Below, piece after piece: positions 24,646-54,842 of a DNA stretch of 64,000 nucleotides; the stretch's first letter is position 1, and each line of letters begins with the position of its first letter. Position numbers and translations under genes: made by a program. The stretch covers positions 124,001-188,000 of the forward strand of contig NZ_WMBA01000002.1 in assembly GCF_009707865.1 (NCBI RefSeq), read 5' to 3'. The stretch comes from Amycolatopsis pithecellobii (GTDB lineage: Bacteria; Actinomycetota; Actinomycetes; Mycobacteriales; Pseudonocardiaceae). The notes below the pieces were generated by a model. The model did no database searches. It worked only from the letters and a program-made list of their open reading frames with translations, and was not told where the DNA came from.

Positions 24646-24738
24646 GTTACCAATCCGACCGAAAGCAGGCGGACACGGTCCGCAGCCGACCTGCTCGTAG
24701 ACACTTGTTTCCGCCGTGGCTGCCGACGGATTGGTAAC
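24646..24738 (-). repeat. 93-bp protein-type palindromic element, intergenic copy
   Basis: This copy lies between coxM and coxG. Its ends are GTTACCAATCCG (24646-24657) and CGGATTGGTAAC (24727-24738), a perfect 12-bp inverted repeat. Read on the minus strand it is 85 of 93 bases identical (my count) to the copy in the Lrp gene, and that strand is open in the same frame, coding for a peptide that starts VTNPSAATAET and ends PAFGRIGN. An open ORF of about 75 codons spans it but looks non-coding outside the element. It is not inside a gene, so it may be an ancestral or failed insertion. Confidence 0.85.
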
Positions 24739-24771
24739 GAACAGCGCAGTGTCGAGAAGGGAGGTCAGGCT

Positions 24772-26606: not shown

Positions 26607-26635
26607 CCGCACAACTGAACATGGGCCGTCATGAG

Positions 26636-26822
26636 CCGGAGCGGGAGAGTCCCCGAGTATTCGGGGCACCGAAGGAGCAACTTCCCCGCCAATCTCTCAG
26701 GTACCAGTTACCGTTCTGGCCAGGCCACTCTGGAAAGCAGGCGCGACAGCTGCGTCTCACCCAAGGTGAAAGCCGCGCTGGCCGCGGTGAAACTCTCAGG
26801 TGCCGATGACAGAGGGGGAGTT
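26636..26822 (+). ncRNA. Glycine riboswitch, tandem aptamers
   Basis: The leader of gcvP shows both conserved cores. Aptamer 1 has GCGGGAGAGTC (26641 on), GCACCGAAGGAGCAACTTCC and AATCTCTCAGGTACC. Aptamer 2 starts near 26730 with CTCTGGAAAGCAG, TCACCCAAGGTGAAAGCC, AAACTCTCAGGTGCC and ends GATGACAGAGGGGGAG. These are the standard elements of the gcvT RNA motif, which binds two glycines and turns on glycine-cleavage genes. The exact ends are approximate; about 28 bases separate it from the gcvP start. Control is most likely at translation or through an internal terminator; neither is proven here. Confidence 0.93.
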
Positions 26823-26849
26823 CCGCAGCCGCCGAATGAGGAGCTCCCG

Positions 26850-29666
26850 ATGTCTGGATTCGCCGACCGTCATATCGGTCCCTCCGCGCACGAACAAGCC
26901 AAGATGCTCGCCGAATGCGGGTACGGCAGTCTCGACGCGCTGGTCGAGGCCGCGGTACCGGCCGCCATCCGCAACCCGCGCGAGCTGGACCTGCTGCCAC
27001 CGGCGTCGGAATCGGAGGCGACGGCCGAACTGCGTGTGCTCGCCGCGAAGAACCGCAGGCTGACGCAGATGATCGGGCTCGGGTTCAGCGACACGGTCAC
27101 CCCGCCGGTCATCCGGCGCAACGTGCTGGAGAGCCCGGCCTGGTACACCGCGTACACCCCGTACCAGCCGGAGATCTCGCAGGGCCGGCTCGAAGCGCTG
27201 CTGAACTTTCAGACGATGGTGTCCACGTTGACCGCGCTGGACACCGCCAACGCCTCGCTGCTGGACGAGTCGACCGCGGTCGCCGAAGCCGTCATGCTGA
27301 TGCGCCGCCAGTCCAAGGCGAAATCGCCGCGGGTGGTGCTCGACGCCGAGTGCCTGCCGCAGACGATCGCGGTCGTGCGGACCCGCGCGGAGGCAGTCGG
27401 GATCGAGGTCGATGTGCGTGATCTGCACAGCGGTCTTCCCGACGAGTTCTTCGGTGTGGTCGTGCAGTATCCGGGCGCCTCCGGAGTGTTACGGGGCAAG
27501 GGTTTCTACGAAGCGATCGGCACCGTCGCCAAGGCCGCGGGTGCGCTCTACACAGTCGCCGCGGACCTGCTCGCGCTGACGCTGGTCACCGCGCCCGGCG
27601 AGTTCGGCGCGGACATCGCCGCCGGGTCGACGCAGCGATTCGGCGTGCCGCTGGGGTACGGCGGCCCGCACGCCGGGTACCTGGCCGTGCGCACCGGACT
27701 GGAGCGCTCGCTGCCCGGCAGGCTCGTCGGGGTCTCGGTCGACGCGGACGGCAACCCCGCGTACCGGCTCGCCCTGCAGACGCGAGAACAGCACATCCGC
27801 CGTGAGAAGGCGACCTCCAACATCTGCACCGCACAGGTCCTGCCGGCGGTGCTCGCCGCGATGTACGCGGTCTACCACGGCCCCGAGGGGCTGAAAGCCA
27901 TCGCCGAGCGGGTGCACGGGCTGGCCAGTGGTCTCGCCGCCGCGCTGCGCGAAGGCGGTGTCGAGGTCGTCCACGAAAGCTTCTTCGACACGGTGCTCGC
28001 GCACGTGCCCGGCCGCGCCCAGCAGGTGATCGCCGCCGCCCGCCGGTCCGGTATCAACCTGGGCCCCGTCGACGCGGATCACGTCCGCATCGCCTGTGAC
28101 GAAGTGACCACAGTGGACACTCTGCGCGGCGTCTTGCTCGCGTTCGAGCTGGAGTCTCGCGTCGAGCCGGGGCCGTCTGCGGTGCCGCCGGGGCTCGCGC
28201 GGGAGAGCGAATACCTGACGCACGAGGTGTTCCATCAGCACCGTTCCGAGACGTCGATGCTGCGGTACCTGCGGCGACTGTCCGATATGGACTATGCGCT
28301 CGATCGCGGGATGATCCCGCTCGGCTCGTGCACCATGAAGCTCAACGCCACGGCCGAAATGGAGCCGATCAGCTGGCCCGAGTTCGCGGGCCTGCACCCC
28401 TTCGCTCCGGCCGAGGACGCCGCCGGGTATCACGAGCTGATCGAGCAGCTGTGCGGCTGGCTCGCCGAAGTCACCGGGTACGACAAGGTTTCGTTGCAGC
28501 CGAACGCCGGTTCCCAGGGCGAGTTCGCCGGCCTGCTGGCGATTCGCGCGTACCACAAGGCCAACGGGCAGCCCGAGCGTGACGTGTGCTTGATCCCGTC
28601 GTCCGCGCACGGCACGAACGCCGCGTCCGCCGTGCTGGCCGGGATGCGTGTGGTGGTCGTGGCCTGCAACGCCGACGGTGACGTCGATCTCGGTGACCTG
28701 CAGGCCAAAGTGGACAGTCACCGGGACACGCTGGCCGCGATCATGGTGACCTACCCGTCCACGCACGGGGTGTACGAGAACGGGATCGGTGAGCTCGCCC
28801 GGATCGTGCACGGGGCGGGCGGACAGGTGTACGTCGACGGTGCGAACCTCAACGCGCTGCTCGGCCTGGCCAAGCCCGGCGAGTTCGGCGGCGACGTGTC
28901 ACATCTGAACCTGCACAAGACTTTCTGCATTCCGCACGGGGGCGGCGGACCTGGTGTCGGCCCGGTCGCGGTGCGTGCGCATCTCGCGCCGTATCTGCCG
29001 GGGCATCCGGGCCTGCCGGAGTCCGGGGTAGGTCCGGTGTCGGCGGCGCCGTACGGTTCCGCGTCGATCCTGCCGATTTCCTGGGCGTACGTGCGGATGA
29101 TGGGCGCCGAGGGGCTGACCAGCGCGACCAAGGTGGCCGTGCTCGCCGCGAACTACATCGCCGCGCGACTTTCGCCGCACTACCCGGTGCTCTACACCGG
29201 CCGTGGCGGCCTGGTCGCGCACGAGTGCATTTTGGACCTTCGTGCGCTCACCAAGCGCACTGGTGTGACCGTGGACGATGTGGCGAAACGCTTGGTAGAC
29301 TACGGTTTCCACGCCCCGACGATGTCGTTCCCGGTGGCGGGCACGCTGATGGTGGAGCCGACCGAGAGCGAGGACGTCGCCGAGATCGACCGGTTCTGTG
29401 ACGCCATGATCGCGATCCGCCGCGAGATCGAAGAGGTCGCCGAGGGGCGCTGGGCGGTCGAGCAGAGCCCGCTACGGGGCGCCCCGCACACCGCGGAAAC
29501 CCTGACGAGCGACTGGAATCTGCCCTACGACCGCAAGCTCGCCGTCTACCCACCAGGGGTGACGCCGAAGACGAAGTACTGGCCGCCGGTCCGCCGCATC
29601 GACGGCGCTTACGGCGATCGCAACCTCGTCTGCTCGTGCCCGCCCATCGAAGCCTACGGGAGCTGA
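26850..29666 (+). CDS. gcvP: Glycine dehydrogenase (decarboxylating), P-protein
   Basis: A 938-residue single-chain P-protein, the usual length. It starts [17 protein letters not shown], and both halves have the aminotransferase-like fold. The PLP-binding lysine is about residue 690 in [19 protein letters not shown]. It decarboxylates glycine and hands the methylamine to the lipoyl H-protein. ATG 26850 follows GAGGAG. The gene is controlled by the riboswitch just upstream and shares a transcript with gcvT one base beyond its stop. The gcvH gene is not in the window. Confidence 0.95.
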
Positions 29667-35902: not shown

Positions 35903-38900
35903 ATGTCTACCGCATCCCCCCTTGGCCAGTTGCGGGCCAAGCTGCCCGAGTTGACGTTGCGCGACGAGCACCGGCTGCGTCGCCGGCTTGATGGTGCGCG
36001 CAAGGCACGGGATCCCGAGCGTGTGGCGCGGCGGATCGCGCAGGATGTCGATGCCGCGGAGGAGCGGGTGCGCCAACGGCGGGACAGCCTGCCGGACATC
36101 ACCTACCCCGCCGAGCTGCCAGTCAGCCAGCGGAAGGACGATATCGCCGCCGCGATCCGGGACAACCAGGTCGTGATCGTCGCGGGCGAAACCGGGTCGG
36201 GCAAGACCACCCAGCTGCCGAAGATCTGCCTCGAACTCGGCCTCGGCGTGCGCGGGCAGATCGGGCACACCCAGCCCCGGCGGCTGGCCGCGCGCACCGT
36301 CGCCGAGCGCATCGCCAGTGAGCTCGGCACGGAACTCGGCGGCGCCGTCGGCTACAAGGTCCGCTTCACCGATTCGAGCGGCGACGACACGCTGGTCAAG
36401 CTGATGACCGACGGCATACTGCTCGCCGAGATCCAGCACGACCGGATGCTCCGCCAGTACGACACGCTGATCATCGACGAGGCGCACGAGCGCAGCCTCA
36501 ACATCGACTTCCTGCTCGGCTACCTCAAGCAGCTTCTGCCGCGCCGCCCCGAGCTCAAGGTGATCATCACCTCCGCGACCATCGACCCCGAGCGTTTCGC
36601 GGAACACTTCGACGGGGCGCCGATCGTCGAGGTGTCCGGGCGCACGTATCCGGTGGAGGTGCGCTACCGGCCCATTGTGGACCCCGATCAGCCGGACGAG
36701 GACCGCGACCAGGTCACGGCGATCTCCGACGCGGTGGACGAGCTGTGCGCCGAAGGTCCGGGTGACATCCTGGTTTTCCTTTCCGGGGAACGGGAAATCC
36801 GCGACACCGCCGATGCACTGTCCAAACAGGAGCGTCGCAATACCGAGATTCTTCCGCTGTACGCCCGGCTTTCCGCGGCGGATCAGCATCGGGTCTTCCA
36901 GCGGCACACCGGCCGCCGGATCGTGCTCGCCACCAACGTCGCCGAGACCTCGCTGACCGTACCCGGAATCAAGTACGTCATCGACCCTGGCACCGCGCGG
37001 ATTTCCCGCTACAGCCACCGCACCAAGGTGCAGCGGCTGCCCATCGAGCCGGTCTCGCAGGCTTCGGCCAACCAGCGCAAGGGCCGCTGCGGTCGTACGT
37101 CCGACGGTATCTGCATCCGGCTGTACACCGAAGCGGATTTCCAGACCAGGCCCGAATTCACGGACCCGGAGATCCTGCGGACGAACCTCGCGTCGGTGAT
37201 CCTGCAGATGACTTCGCTCGGCCTCGGTACTGTGTCGAACGTGACCAATCCGACCGGCAGTCACGGCGATCCGGCTGGCGTAGGCCAACTTCCGGTTGAT
37301 CAGGGTGGGCCTACTTTCGGTCGGATTGCTCATGTCGCCGCATTCCCGTTCGTCGAGCCACCGGATCGCCGTCAGATCAACGACGGCATGCAGTTGCTGG
37401 CGGAACTGGGTGCGCTGGAGTCCGGAAAGCTCACGGAGACCGGGCGCGGTCTGGCACAGCTGCCCGTCGACCCGAGGCTGGGCCGGATGGTGCTGGAGGC
37501 TGCGAAGAACGGGTGCGTCCGCGAGGTGATGATCATCGCCGCCGCACTGTCCATTCAGGACCCACGCGAGCGCCCGGCGGACAAGCAGGAGGCCGCGCGG
37601 CAACAGCATGCGCGGTTCACCGACAAGACCTCCGACTTCCTGGCCTACCTGAACCTGTGGGAGTACCTGCGGGAGCAACAGAAAGCGCTTTCCAACAACC
37701 AGTTCCGCAAGCTGTGCCGTGCGAAGTTCCTCAACTACCTGCGCGTGCGCGAATGGCAGGACATCTACAGTCAGCTGCGCCAGCTCGCGAAACCGCTGGG
37801 CGTCACGCTCAACAGTGAGCCTGCCGATCCGCAGCGCGTGCACATCTCCTTGATCGCCGGGCTGCTTTCGCATATCGGGCTCAAGGATCCGGAAAAGGGT
37901 GACTACGTCGGCGCCCGCGGTGCGCGATTCGCCGTGTTCCCCGGTTCGGCGCTGTTCCGGAAACCGCCGCGCTGGCTGATTTCGGCCGAGCTGGTGGAGA
38001 CGTCGCGGCTGTGGGCGCGGGTCAACGCGCGTATCGAGCCGGAGTGGGTCGAGCCGCTCGCCGGGCACCTGGTGAAGCGCAACTATTCCGAGCCACACTG
38101 GGAACGCAAGCGCGGCGCGGTGATGGCGAGCGAGCGCGTGACGCTGTATGGCGTACCGCTGGTGGCCGACCGCAAGGTCAACTACGGCCGGATCGACCCG
38201 GAACTGTCGCGCGAGCTGTTCATCCGGCATGCGCTGGTCGAGGGTGACTGGGACACCAACCACAAGTTCTTCGCGGAGAACCGGGCGTTGCTCGACGAGG
38301 TCGAGGATCTGGAGAACCGGGCCCGCAGGCGTGATCTGCTGGTCGACGATCAGACGTTGTTCGAGTTCTACGACCAGCGGGTCGGGCAGGAAGTGGTGTC
38401 CGGGCGGCATTTCGACACCTGGTGGAAGAAGGCGCGGCACGATCAGCCGGACCTGCTCAATTTCGAAAAGGCCATGTTGATCAACTCCGCGGCCGAGCAG
38501 GTCCGCGAGTCCGATTACCCGGACACTTGGCTGCAGGGCACGCAGCCGTTGACGCTGACCTACCAGTTCGAGCCGGGCGCCGACGCCGACGGTGTGACCG
38601 TCCACATTCCACTGCCGGTGCTCAACCAGATCACCCCCGACGGGTTCGACTGGCAGGTACCGGGCCTGCGCGAGGAGCTCGTGACCGCGCTGATCAAGTC
38701 ACTGCCTAAACAACTGCGGCGGAACTTCGTGCCGGCACCGGACACCGCGAAGTACGTACTGTCGCGTGTGGACCCGGCGGACGGGCCGTTGCTCGACGTG
38801 CTGGCGGCCGAGCTGGCGGAGCTGAGCGGGGTGACCGTGCCGGCGGACGCATGGCAGCTTTCCGCCGTGCCCGAGCATCTGCGCGTCACGTTCCGGGTGA

Positions 38901-39862
38901 TCGACGACAAGGGCCGGAAACTGCGTGAGGGCAAGGATCTTGTGGCGCTCAAGCATGCGTTGAGCGGGCAGGTCCGGGCGACGATCTCGAAGGCGGCGAC
39001 CAGTATCGAGCGCGGCGGGCTGACCAAGCCGGCGTTCGGTGAGCTGCCGCGCGTGTTCGCGAGCACCCAGCGCGGGCATGACGTGAAGGCGTTTCCCGCT
39101 CTGGTCGACGAGGGTGACAGTGTGGCGGTGCGGATGCTCGACACACCGATCGAGCAGAGCCAGCAGATGTGGCTGGGCACGCGCAAACTGTTGCGGCTCA
39201 ACCTGCCCTCGCCGATGAAGTTCATCAGCCGCAACCTGTCGAACGCGTCGAAACTCGTGCTGGGGCGGAACCCGCACGGGAGCGTCGCCGGGTTGCTGGA
39301 GGACTGCGTGAACTGCGCGGTGGACAAGCTGATCGCCGACAACGGCGGACCGGTGTGGGACGAGGCGGGATTCGCGGTGCTGCTGGAAAAGGTCCGTGGC
39401 GGGGTGAACTCGACTGTCCTGGATGTACTGTCCGAAGTGGAGCGGATCCTGCGTGCGGCCAACGACGTGGAGGCCCGGCTACCGGACGCGCGTGGCCCCG
39501 CGGAGTCGCTTTCGGACATCCGGCAGCAGCTGGATTCCTTGATATTTTCCGGTTTTGTGACCGCGACGGGCTTCGGAAGACTGCCCGATCTGGTGCGCTA
39601 CCTCCGGGCGATCGAGCGCCGGATCGACAAGCTGCCCACCGCCGCCGCGAAGGACGTCGAGCTGATGCGGGACCTGCGGTGGTTGCACGAGGAGTACCAG
39701 GCCGCGGTCGACGCCCTGCCGCCCGGCGTCGCACCGGGCCCCGCACTCGTCGGAGTCCGGTGGATGCTGGAAGAACTGCGGGTCAGCTACTTCGCCCAAA
39801 CGCTGGGCACCGCATACCCGGTCTCCTCGAAGCGAATCCTGAAGGCACTGGACGCCGCCTGA
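35903..39862 (+). CDS. hrpA: ATP-dependent RNA helicase HrpA, with in-frame element insertion
   Basis: A 1319-residue DEAH-box helicase, close to the 1300-residue HrpA of E. coli. Walker A GETGSGKTTQ lies near residue 95, DEAH near 191, SAT (IITSATIDPERF) near 218, followed by the QRKGRCGR motif near 391. It then has winged-helix, helicase-associated and the long HrpA-specific C-terminal DUF3418 region. Residues 447-477 are a 31-residue insertion from the 93-bp element at 37241-37333, placed between TSLGLG and AAFPFVEPPD, a stretch that is continuous in other HrpA proteins. HrpA rescues stalled ribosomes in bacteria. The inserted loop seems tolerated, since the rest is intact. Confidence 0.93.
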   Translation: MSTASPLGQLRAKLPELTLRDEHRLRRRLDGARKARDPERVARRIAQDVDAAEERVRQRRDSLPDITYPAELPVSQRKDDIAAAIRDNQVVIVAGETGSGKTTQLPKICLELGLGVRGQIGHTQPRRLAARTVAERIASELGTELGGAVGYKVRFTDSSGDDTLVKLMTDGILLAEIQHDRMLRQYDTLIIDEAHERSLNIDFLLGYLKQLLPRRPELKVIITSATIDPERFAEHFDGAPIVEVSGRTYPVEVRYRPIVDPDQPDEDRDQVTAISDAVDELCAEGPGDILVFLSGEREIRDTADALSKQERRNTEILPLYARLSAADQHRVFQRHTGRRIVLATNVAETSLTVPGIKYVIDPGTARISRYSHRTKVQRLPIEPVSQASANQRKGRCGRTSDGICIRLYTEADFQTRPEFTDPEILRTNLASVILQMTSLGLGTVSNVTNPTGSHGDPAGVGQLPVDQGGPTFGRIAHVAAFPFVEPPDRRQINDGMQLLAELGALESGKLTETGRGLAQLPVDPRLGRMVLEAAKNGCVREVMIIAAALSIQDPRERPADKQEAARQQHARFTDKTSDFLAYLNLWEYLREQQKALSNNQFRKLCRAKFLNYLRVREWQDIYSQLRQLAKPLGVTLNSEPADPQRVHISLIAGLLSHIGLKDPEKGDYVGARGARFAVFPGSALFRKPPRWLISAELVETSRLWARVNARIEPEWVEPLAGHLVKRNYSEPHWERKRGAVMASERVTLYGVPLVADRKVNYGRIDPELSRELFIRHALVEGDWDTNHKFFAENRALLDEVEDLENRARRRDLLVDDQTLFEFYDQRVGQEVVSGRHFDTWWKKARHDQPDLLNFEKAMLINSAAEQVRESDYPDTWLQGTQPLTLTYQFEPGADADGVTVHIPLPVLNQITPDGFDWQVPGLREELVTALIKSLPKQLRRNFVPAPDTAKYVLSRVDPADGPLLDVLAAELAELSGVTVPADAWQLSAVPEHLRVTFRVIDDKGRKLREGKDLVALKHALSGQVRATISKAATSIERGGLTKPAFGELPRVFASTQRGHDVKAFPALVDEGDSVAVRMLDTPIEQSQQMWLGTRKLLRLNLPSPMKFISRNLSNASKLVLGRNPHGSVAGLLEDCVNCAVDKLIADNGGPVWDEAGFAVLLEKVRGGVNSTVLDVLSEVERILRAANDVEARLPDARGPAESLSDIRQQLDSLIFSGFVTATGFGRLPDLVRYLRAIERRIDKLPTAAAKDVELMRDLRWLHEEYQAAVDALPPGVAPGPALVGVRWMLEELRVSYFAQTLGTAYPVSSKRILKALDAA
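37241..37333 (+). repeat. 93-bp palindromic element inside hrpA
   Basis: This copy starts GTGACCAATCCGACCG and ends CGGTCGGATTGCTCAT. CAATCCGACCG (37245-37255) and CGGTCGGATTG (37319-37329) form an 11-bp inverted repeat, and GTAGGCC pairs with GGCCTAC inside. It begins on a codon boundary (446 codons after the ATG) and reads VTNPTGSHGDPAGVG... to PTFGRIAH. The inner half differs from the other two copies, so it is a diverged or different subtype with the same ends and the same reading frame. Confidence 0.85.
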
Positions 39863-53753: not shown

Positions 53754-54842
53754 ATGGAGAAGGATTCCGTCACACTCGACCACGTCGACCGGAAGCTGCT
53801 GCACGCCCTGCACGTCGACGCGCGGGCGTCTTTCGCGCGGATTGGGGATGTGCTCGGCGTATCCGATCGGACCGTCGCGCGCCGTTACGTGCGGCTGCGT
53901 GAGCGCAAGGTGATCAACCTCGTGGGCATCACCGACTCGAGCCGCCTCGACGGGGCCGAATGGGTCGTCCGTATGCAGTGCAAGCCCGGATCCGCCGTGC
54001 AGGTCGCCGACGCACTCGCCCGCCGCGACGACACCCGATGGGTCAGCCTGCTCTCCGGCGGCACCGAGATCAGCGCCAGTGTGCGGGCCTGGTCCGCACG
54101 CGAACGTCCTGTGCCGTTCGTTACCAATCCGACGGCAGCCACGGCGGAAACGGGTTTCTACGAGCAGGTCCGCTGCGGACCGTGTCCGCCTACTTTCGGC
54201 CGGATTAGTAACGAGCCGATCCTGCAACGCCTGCACCGCACCGCGCCGGTCGTTTCGGTCACCGCGCACAGTGTGCTGCACGTGTTCAGCACCACCCGGC
54301 ACGGCTTCGAAGGCCCAGGATCCCTTACCAGACACCAAATCGCTGCCCTGCAGCCGGCCTACGACGCCGGCGCGGGCACTCTCGCCGACGACGATCGGCC
54401 ACTGCTGGAGGCACTCGCCGTCGACGGCCGCGCACCTTATCCGGCACTCGCCGTCGCGACCGGCTGGTCCGAATCCACCGTCGCCCGCCGTATCCACGCA
54501 CTGCGCGCGGCCGACCTGCTCCGGTTCGATCTCGACGTCAACGCGGCGGCGCTGGGATACCACGCCGAAGCACGGCTGTGGGCCAGCGTGCCCCCCGCCC
54601 ACCTCGCCGATACCGGTGCCGCCGTGGCCACCCACCCCGAAGTCACCTTCTGCGCCGCCACCACCGGACCGGCCAACCTGCTCATCTCCACGGTCTGCCG
54701 CGACAGCCGGGACCTCTACCGATATCTGACCGAACGCCTCGGTGCCCTGCCACAGATCCACGAGGTCCAGACCGCGCCCGTGATCCGCGTCGTCAAACGT
54801 GCCGGCCGCCGGCCCTCAGCCATCGGCGCGGCGCACGGCTAA
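53754..54842 (+). CDS. Lrp/AsnC regulator, double module, with in-frame element
   Basis: A 362-residue protein with two Lrp/AsnC modules in a row. The first helix-turn-helix is about residues 10-60 (RKLLHALHVDARASFARIGDVLGVSDRTVARRYVRL) with its sensor half at about 70-190, and the second helix-turn-helix is about 212-258 (LLEALAVDGRAPYPALAVATGWSESTVARRI) with the second sensor half to about 350. Residues 123-153 are an insertion from the 93-bp element, between SARERPVPF and EPILQRLHR; TAPVVSVTAHSVLHVF then resumes. It probably binds an amino acid or related ligand. Target genes are unknown; the flavin-like MDR gene is divergent. The stop lies within the convergent response-regulator gene, overlapping by 27 bp. 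Confidence 0.88.
   Translation: MEKDSVTLDHVDRKLLHALHVDARASFARIGDVLGVSDRTVARRYVRLRERKVINLVGITDSSRLDGAEWVVRMQCKPGSAVQVADALARRDDTRWVSLLSGGTEISASVRAWSARERPVPFVTNPTAATAETGFYEQVRCGPCPPTFGRISNEPILQRLHRTAPVVSVTAHSVLHVFSTTRHGFEGPGSLTRHQIAALQPAYDAGAGTLADDDRPLLEALAVDGRAPYPALAVATGWSESTVARRIHALRAADLLRFDLDVNAAALGYHAEARLWASVPPAHLADTGAAVATHPEVTFCAATTGPANLLISTVCRDSRDLYRYLTERLGALPQIHEVQTAPVIRVVKRAGRRPSAIGAAHG
54120..54212 (+). repeat. 93-bp palindromic element inside the Lrp gene
   Basis: The ends are GTTACCAATCCG (54120-54131) and CGGATTAGTAAC (54201-54212), a 12-bp inverted repeat with one mismatch. Inside, GGCGGAAACGG pairs with CCGTGTCCGCC and GGTCCGC with GCGGACC, so the whole element folds as a long hairpin. 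It starts on a codon boundary (122 codons after the ATG) and adds VTNPTAATAETGFYEQ... to PTFGRISN, including a CGPC dithiol-like motif. Confidence 0.9.

Follow-up and report, generated by a model that had tools for sequence, protein, structure and literature searches.

A 102-nt palindromic repeat family of Amycolatopsis with copies in frame in HrpA and other protein genes

Introduction

Palindromes inserted in frame into conserved proteins are best known from Rickettsia, for which the small genome and the weakness of selection provide a convenient explanation. The available passages of two sources describe the Rickettsia palindromic elements (RPEs) as palindromic stem-loop units of 105–146 bp that are fused in frame in Rickettsia proteins, and report for an RPE in guanylate kinase that the product is translated and active, with a changed substrate affinity (PMC2229807, PMC10969869). 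Nearly half of the RPE copies lie in ORFs, according to the text available from the second of these (PMC10969869), and the corresponding passages of a third source state that RPE sequences end in CGTC and that CGTC repeats occur without a dedicated transposase (PMC3733652). Other families, namely ERIC, RU-2/YPAL, NEMIS, and RUP, are described in part of the first source as units of approximately 100–170 bp with long stem-loops and several ORF fusions (PMC2229807). For mycobacteria, the passages available of a further source describe MIRUs as short repeats, apparently mobile, whose insertion sites are start codons and whose ORF is coupled to the gene (PMC12548453). In the literature searched (listings, abstracts, and passages), we found no palindromic in-frame element from Amycolatopsis or any other actinobacterium.

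Here, we followed up a preliminary description of a palindrome inside the HrpA helicase gene of Amycolatopsis pithecellobii, located in a window of 64,000 nt (positions 124,001–188,000 of contig NZ_WMBA01000002.1, forward strand). This case concerns an 8-Mb, GC-rich actinomycete in which the hosts are its only HrpA match and several enzymes. The readable empty sites within the genus render the insertion rule testable, and the presence of 7 carriers versus 12 non-carriers makes a search for a mobilising gene feasible. Our main conclusion, to which we give a probability of roughly 0.87, is that the insert in HrpA belongs to a family of small, non-autonomous mobile palindromes of Amycolatopsis and is probably tolerated in frame.

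Results

An in-frame insert in HrpA

The identity of the interrupted gene (Table 1) is supported by NCBIfam PRK11131.1, which matched with 2054.1 bits in two stretches (cut-off 1400), and a 200-aa HrpA query gave a single match in the insert-bearing genome at E 1e-30. When re-read from the window, the bases at 37241–37333 were as reported in the preliminary description; the insert is open in the helicase frame, flanked by TSLGLG and AAFPFVEPP, and the ORF is intact. It separates the helicase C domain from the winged-helix domain HA2_N, Gly or Pro account for 11 of its 35 residues, and a home-made frame analysis found coding signal on both sides of it.

Comparison with orthologues, which had been proposed as a check, showed that the insertion is specific to the window's genome, HrpA in all 18 other genomes of the genus being without the residues. 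In every one of them, the 200-aa query stopped at residue 84 or 85 and restarted at 117 or 118 with the DNA contiguous, and the loci of eight relatives, read on the gene strand, showed GLGDIAAFPF or near variants (Glu replaces Asp in one). Likewise, in the one PDB alignment, the HrpA chain of entry 9ggr, presumably the E. coli protein, aligned at residues 10–444 and 478–1317 and lacked the insert. The net gain relative to uninterrupted HrpA is 102 nt, that is 34 codons and not the 31 residues first claimed, and the 35 residues TVSN...IAH occupy the place of a single residue; together with flanking bases the element reads TVSNVTNPTGSHGDPAGVGQLPVDQGGPTFGRIAH. The 93 bp initially delimited thus cover only the palindromic part of a 102-nt unit, since the family consensus begins 13 nt upstream with TACTGTGTCGAAC. 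Nor does the element start on a codon boundary, as had been thought; its first base is the last position of a GGT codon. From the proposed 12-mer ends, the HrpA copy (GTGACCAATCCG / CGGATTGCTCAT) deviates at one left-hand and three right-hand bases.

Table 1. Features of the window related to the element
Feature	Position	Strand	Remarks
hrpA, ATP-dependent RNA helicase	35903..39862	+	1319 aa (start codon chosen by us), intact ORF; element after residue 442
5' one-sided element tail TACTGTGTCGAAC	37228..37240	+	Conserved across the family
Element copy in hrpA, subfamily B, 102-nt unit	37228..37329	+	Covariance model match at 37228–37332, 93.1 bits
TCAT in the position of the TAAC that follows other copies	37330..37333	+	From filled/empty comparison and bases after the unit in 144 copies
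Lrp/AsnC-type regulator ORF	53754..54842	+	Pfam PF13404 (two stretches), PF01037
Element copy, subfamily A, 102-nt unit	54107..54208	+	In frame in the Lrp/AsnC-type ORF; TAAC at 54209–54212
Element copy, subfamily A, 102-nt unit	24650..24751	−	Intergenic; TAAC (as GTTA) at 24646–24649

Elsewhere in the window, Rfam RF00504 matched twice in a row at 26632–26822 on the forward strand (58.4 and 41 bits), which indicates a pair of glycine riboswitch aptamers. Because they overlap the listed start of ORF 26631–29666, the true start of this ORF is probably further downstream. At positions 297–474, a 22-nt unit is repeated in two short tandem arrays, of 2.2 and 5.3 copies, and all five window occurrences of the 18-mer GGGAACGCGCAACTCGCG (up to 2 mismatches) fall within this array.

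A repeat family found in part of the genus

A covariance model built from 36 sequences, the copies at 54107 and 37228 among them, matched the window at 54107–54211 (+, E 3.9e-24), 24647–24751 (−, E 7.7e-23), and 37228–37332 (+, E 6.8e-21). The kinship claimed for the copies at 54120 and 24646 is borne out by these matches; the shared reading frame, in contrast, applies to the former, which is inside the Lrp/AsnC-type ORF, and not to the latter, which is intergenic according to our frame caller. Taken alone, the 12-mer is modestly above chance (7 window matches with up to 2 mismatches versus 3.03 expected; 4 of 100 shuffles reach this number). For the whole element, chance is far exceeded, as judged by the E value of the HrpA copy, obtained with a model built from that copy among others, and by the genome-wide counts below.

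In the 36-copy alignment, the repeat opens with TACTGTG, 12–13 nt ahead of the palindrome, and closes with GGATTGG followed by TAA(C). Counted from the T of TACTG through the last base ahead of TAA, the unit measures 102 nt in 97 of 144 copies (101 nt in 25, 100 nt in 11, 103 nt in 5, and other lengths in 6). Sorting by eye gave four loose subfamilies, the copies at 54107 and 24650 belonging to A and the HrpA copy to B; these two subfamilies have common ends and the internal boxes CAGYCACGGC and GCCTACTTT, and their middles differ.

The genome search that had been suggested returned at least 95 matches to the element in the window's genome, and at least 57, 39, 36, 9, 7, and 2 in the relatives G004, G009, G007, G018, G006, and G010, respectively, all these counts being lower bounds with the best 150 candidates scored per genome. 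In total, at least 245 matches were found in 7 of the 19 genomes of the genus, and none among the candidates scored in the other 12. BLAST over 61 genomes gave matches in nine, of which eight were Amycolatopsis and one was a weak short match in another genus; among the eight, G015 showed a short match that the covariance model did not confirm. An exact pattern matched 32 stretches of named genomes, all of them Amycolatopsis, including A. alkalitolerans, A. acidicola, and Amycolatopsis sp. GM8. No element match was found in viral contigs with the exact pattern or in phages and plasmids with blastn, and none of the Rfam families matches the element at gathering thresholds.

Identity between copies from unrelated places reaches 98%. 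Only three cross-genome pairs sharing a site were found among 144 copies (blastn with 600-nt flanks; 144 of at least 245 known). The repeats make up a real family of small mobile palindromes, which we did not meet in the papers searched. We also observed copies in tandem: three with a 102-nt period on contig C82 (L166, G000:C82:16665–16973), and two 101 nt apart on contig C100 (L167). Tandem copies at a 102-nt period are as expected from insertion at the element's own end.

Conserved pairing of the outer stem

The pairing of the outer stem is conserved through double changes. In the alignment of 36 sequences, from which the stem was also read, a circumstance somewhat in its favour, 91.3% of the cells in its 15 pairs are standard pairs. 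Nine of the 15 pairs have changed on both sides, with 22 such cells where shuffles give 3.3 (0 of 500 shuffles reached 22). Slid controls of the stem collapse, and 3 of 500 shuffles match its number of pair types, compared with 0 of 500 for the other measures. The consensus fold has an energy of −11.6 kcal/mol and comprises little past the outer stem, the interior being without a convincing fold. As DNA, the HrpA copy forms the stem despite bases that differ from the consensus (z −2.95; 1 of 200 shuffles as good). Two of five single-copy DNA folds, those of the 54107 copy and of L052, showed no clear gain in stability over shuffles (z −1.03 and −1.26); for the 54107 copy, the outer stem is missing from the minimum-energy fold.

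Insertion next to a TAAC-like site

The insertion site in a thiolase gene reads GTCC-TAAC-AGG when empty (G018) and GTCC-[102 nt]-TAAC-AGG when filled (G004), and the empty site of the amidohydrolase gene in G007 reads GG-TAAC-CG. At other empty sites we found CGAC, CAAC, TGAC, TGAT, CAAG, or other tetranucleotides, and at the HrpA site the eight relatives have, on the gene strand, CGAC (7/8) or GGAG (1/8); these are the relatives' bases and not necessarily those present before insertion. The site preference is apparent in the bases that follow the unit in the 144 copies, with frequencies of 0.88 for T, 0.94 for A, 0.84 for A, and 0.56 for C.

Direct repeats in the flanks of the 144 copies were no higher than in shuffled pairs, with the exception of one site, the hydantoinase B junction, which has a 10-bp direct repeat. 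TA is found at both ends of 79 of the 144 copies, and the ends are not both TA in the remaining 65. At all sites but one there is no duplication beyond TA. Together, the sites and the flank repeats indicate insertion 5' of a TAAC-like site either without duplication or with duplication of TA, two outcomes that are indistinguishable.

Copies inside genes

Eight of the 144 copies examined are located in genes, 7 of 79 in the window's genome and 1 of 65 in three relatives, and all eight are in frame without a stop. The hosts in the window's genome are HrpA, the Lrp/AsnC-type regulator, hydantoinase B, an amidohydrolase, an ETF-alpha-like protein, an MMPL transporter, and CutC. The eighth copy, in the G004 thiolase, has the opposite orientation, and the shared frame is therefore a tendency only. 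The regulator at 53754–54842 contains two HTH_AsnC-type stretches, that is, a tandem Lrp/AsnC arrangement.

In all six genes with a readable empty site, the net insertion is a multiple of three. It amounts to +102 in HrpA, in the amidohydrolase (five relatives), and in the thiolase (G018), to +99 in CutC (two relatives), to +111 in hydantoinase B (two relatives), and, depending on the relative, to +102 or +105 in the ETF-alpha-like gene (four relatives; in one of them an alignment gap shifted the length by one base, and the value was taken by eye). Element-free thiolase sites are readable in both G018 and G007. The MMPL site is variable, with 0 to 11 nt differences between relatives, so that its net length is not definable, and for the Lrp/AsnC-type gene five relatives gave weak partial matches only, from which no empty site was read.

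Seven of the eight in-gene copies exit in the VTNPT...FGRIGN frame, compared with 41% predicted (P 0.01) when coding TAAC sites are weighted by codon phase and by the openness of each element frame. Six of these seven also enter in that frame, one of the six, the ETF-alpha-like copy, shifting mid-element; the CutC copy enters in another frame and joins the VTNPT...FGRIGN frame after a 1-nt deletion. The remaining bias may reflect the peptides encoded, as the VTNPT frame gives a loop-like peptide and the other open frames are Arg-rich. Outside genes, we saw no clear sign of coding constraint, the VTNP frame being open in 104 of 135 copies versus 94 for the next frame.

Depletion in genes and copies between genes

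Genes were delimited with a home-made frame caller based on the codon usage of 29 window ORFs. It made two errors, placing the copy between a hydrolase gene and hisC inside a gene and missing the one in CutC, and both were corrected by comparison with relatives. According to this caller, TAAC occurs at 0.42–0.61 per kb in genes versus 1.56–2.39 outside. Even so, 57–63% of TAAC sites are coding, whereas approximately 6% of the copies are in genes, a strong depletion (binomial 4e-19 or lower; 7/79 in the window's genome, 8/144 overall). The in-gene copies look like rare survivors.

We found no evidence of gene disruption among tightly flanked copies. Sixteen of 79 same-strand gene pairs were tightly flanked, and the 15 scanned with Pfam revealed no split gene, 12 having different families on the two sides and 3 being uninformative. 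Outside genes, copies are found in each of the four neighbour arrangements and in both orientations, and some provide the stop codon of the upstream gene. For instance, a copy between rimM and trmD (L042, G000:C57:3890–3993), in opposite orientation, contains a TAG that ends the rimM frame. At the hydrolase/hisC copy (L048), several relatives show TGAC or TGAT before the ATG. In G004, the hydrolase/hisC spacer (L150, L155; G004:C34, ~304176–304252) contains ~73 extra nt of a different sequence, in which an inverted repeat was recognised by eye; a second small mobile family may have used this spot.

Search for a mobilising enzyme

The Y1 transposase domain (Y1_Tnp, PF01797) was detected in none of the seven carrier genomes by a search that was positive in 5 of 14 control genomes, and its sole match in the genus is a partial one in the non-carrier G012. 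The Y2 domain (PF04986) was found in none of six carriers and gave one weak match in the seventh, G007 (23.8 bits, cut-off 20.9, in a 1289-codon frame); this search is without a positive control, as 0 of 14 control genomes match, and two non-carriers show matches like that of G007. An autonomous partner was sought in the 7.5–8 kb around six partial BLAST matches, which turned out to be five truncated copies and one full copy, with no distant second end.

Discussion

The observation made in the preliminary description is partly confirmed by this analysis and its interpretation partly supported. Neither of the two outcomes that it named as refuting was observed. The reading of the HrpA residues as an ordinary conserved loop, with the similarity of the DNA being coincidental, would account for the intact ORF and the coding signal on both sides. 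We rejected it, and give it practically no chance, because HrpA of the 18 relatives and of the PDB entry does without these residues and because the same genome holds at least 94 further matches, making the stretch part of a genome-wide repeat. RNA excision or ribosome bypassing, which would take the insert out before or during translation in the manner of a miniature intron, is also very improbable. The HrpA copy does fold better than nearly all of its shuffles, but the frame is stop-free through all eight in-gene copies, which excision would not require.

As to how a mobile palindrome of this kind is moved, the palindrome itself, the tetranucleotide site, the lack of clear duplication, and the asymmetric ends are hallmarks of the IS200/IS605 group, and would suit a REP- or PATE-type element moved by a transposase of that type (Y1, RAYT). 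The same hallmarks are given for REP and RAYT in the available part of PMC3733652. The absence of PF01797 matches from the seven carriers and unit ends without GTAG or CGTC make this origin doubtful. Less likely again is that the element is a RUP-like MITE of the classical kind, mobilised by a DDE transposase (IS630 type) that duplicates a TA target. The 79 copies with TA at both ends are what one would look for in that case, as bacterial MITEs of the IS630-type class mostly have TA termini according to the accessible text of PMC2229807. Against this, the other 65 copies depart from the rule, conservation continues past the right TA into A and C, the unit has no terminal inverted repeats (its palindrome begins 12–13 nt inside the left end), and the surroundings of the six partial BLAST matches contained no distant second end.

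For the mobile palindrome of Amycolatopsis, we tentatively consider an enzyme class new to such elements, a possibility that we rate somewhat above the transposases just discussed and still well short of even odds. Such an enzyme would recognise the folded 102-nt unit and place it 5' of TAAC with no duplication; the 34-codon length would be held as copies that pass in frame survive better. In our main reading, which we hold with much more confidence, the mobilising enzyme is probably neither of the two kinds searched (Y1 and Y2), and the hairpin is probably the feature that it recognises. In that reading, the ends of the unit pair into a stem of ~15 bp, leaving a one-sided tail of 12–13 nt, and the unit enters directly 5' of a TAAC-like tetranucleotide that is not itself duplicated. 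An insertion within a gene can leave the protein full-length because 102 nt correspond to 34 codons and several frames are open, the added stretch being predicted to be rich in Gly, Pro, Thr, and Asn. Most copies are found between genes because selection probably purges other in-gene insertions. Judging from the sequence, the HrpA insert is probably translated and tolerated. If the new enzyme class were real, the genome would represent a natural, ongoing experiment in protein insertion.

Among known systems, REP/REPIN with RAYT and the IS200/IS605-derived PATEs resemble the Amycolatopsis element in having a palindrome, a short site, and no clear duplication, but they differ from it in their GTAG ends and in their Y1 transposase, which the seven carriers lack in our search. 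ERIC, RU-2/YPAL, NEMIS, and RUP mostly have terminal inverted repeats and a target duplication, as far as described in the passages of PMC2229807, whereas we found neither in the Amycolatopsis element, save a possible TA. The earlier statement that no such element had been described in actinomycetes stands for the papers searched in so far as palindromes in frame are concerned, with the qualification that mycobacterial MIRUs, as presented in the available text (PMC12548453), are comparable, apparently mobile repeats. They are the nearest actinobacterial parallel that we found, being short repeats at gene boundaries, as is the copy ahead of hisC. Unlike MIRUs as described there, the Amycolatopsis copies occur in all neighbour arrangements and both orientations and are not bound to start codons. 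The available description of MIRUs, on which and not on sequence this comparison is based, mentions neither a palindromic stem nor insertion within conserved protein domains.

The parallel drawn initially with Rickettsia holds for an in-frame, probably tolerated palindrome and is not supported as family kinship. With a unit of 102 nt, a 15-pair stem, and copies in frame in protein genes, the Amycolatopsis element is similar to RPEs as these are described in the passages available. However, its stem is offset by 12–13 nt on one side, it begins with TACTG and ends with GGATTGG followed by TAAC instead of CGTC, only 8 of its 144 copies (~6%) are in genes versus nearly half, and it uses a TAAC-like site in another phylum. 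The Amycolatopsis element works like RPEs, and is set apart from them by its ends and by the share of its copies that lie in ORFs.
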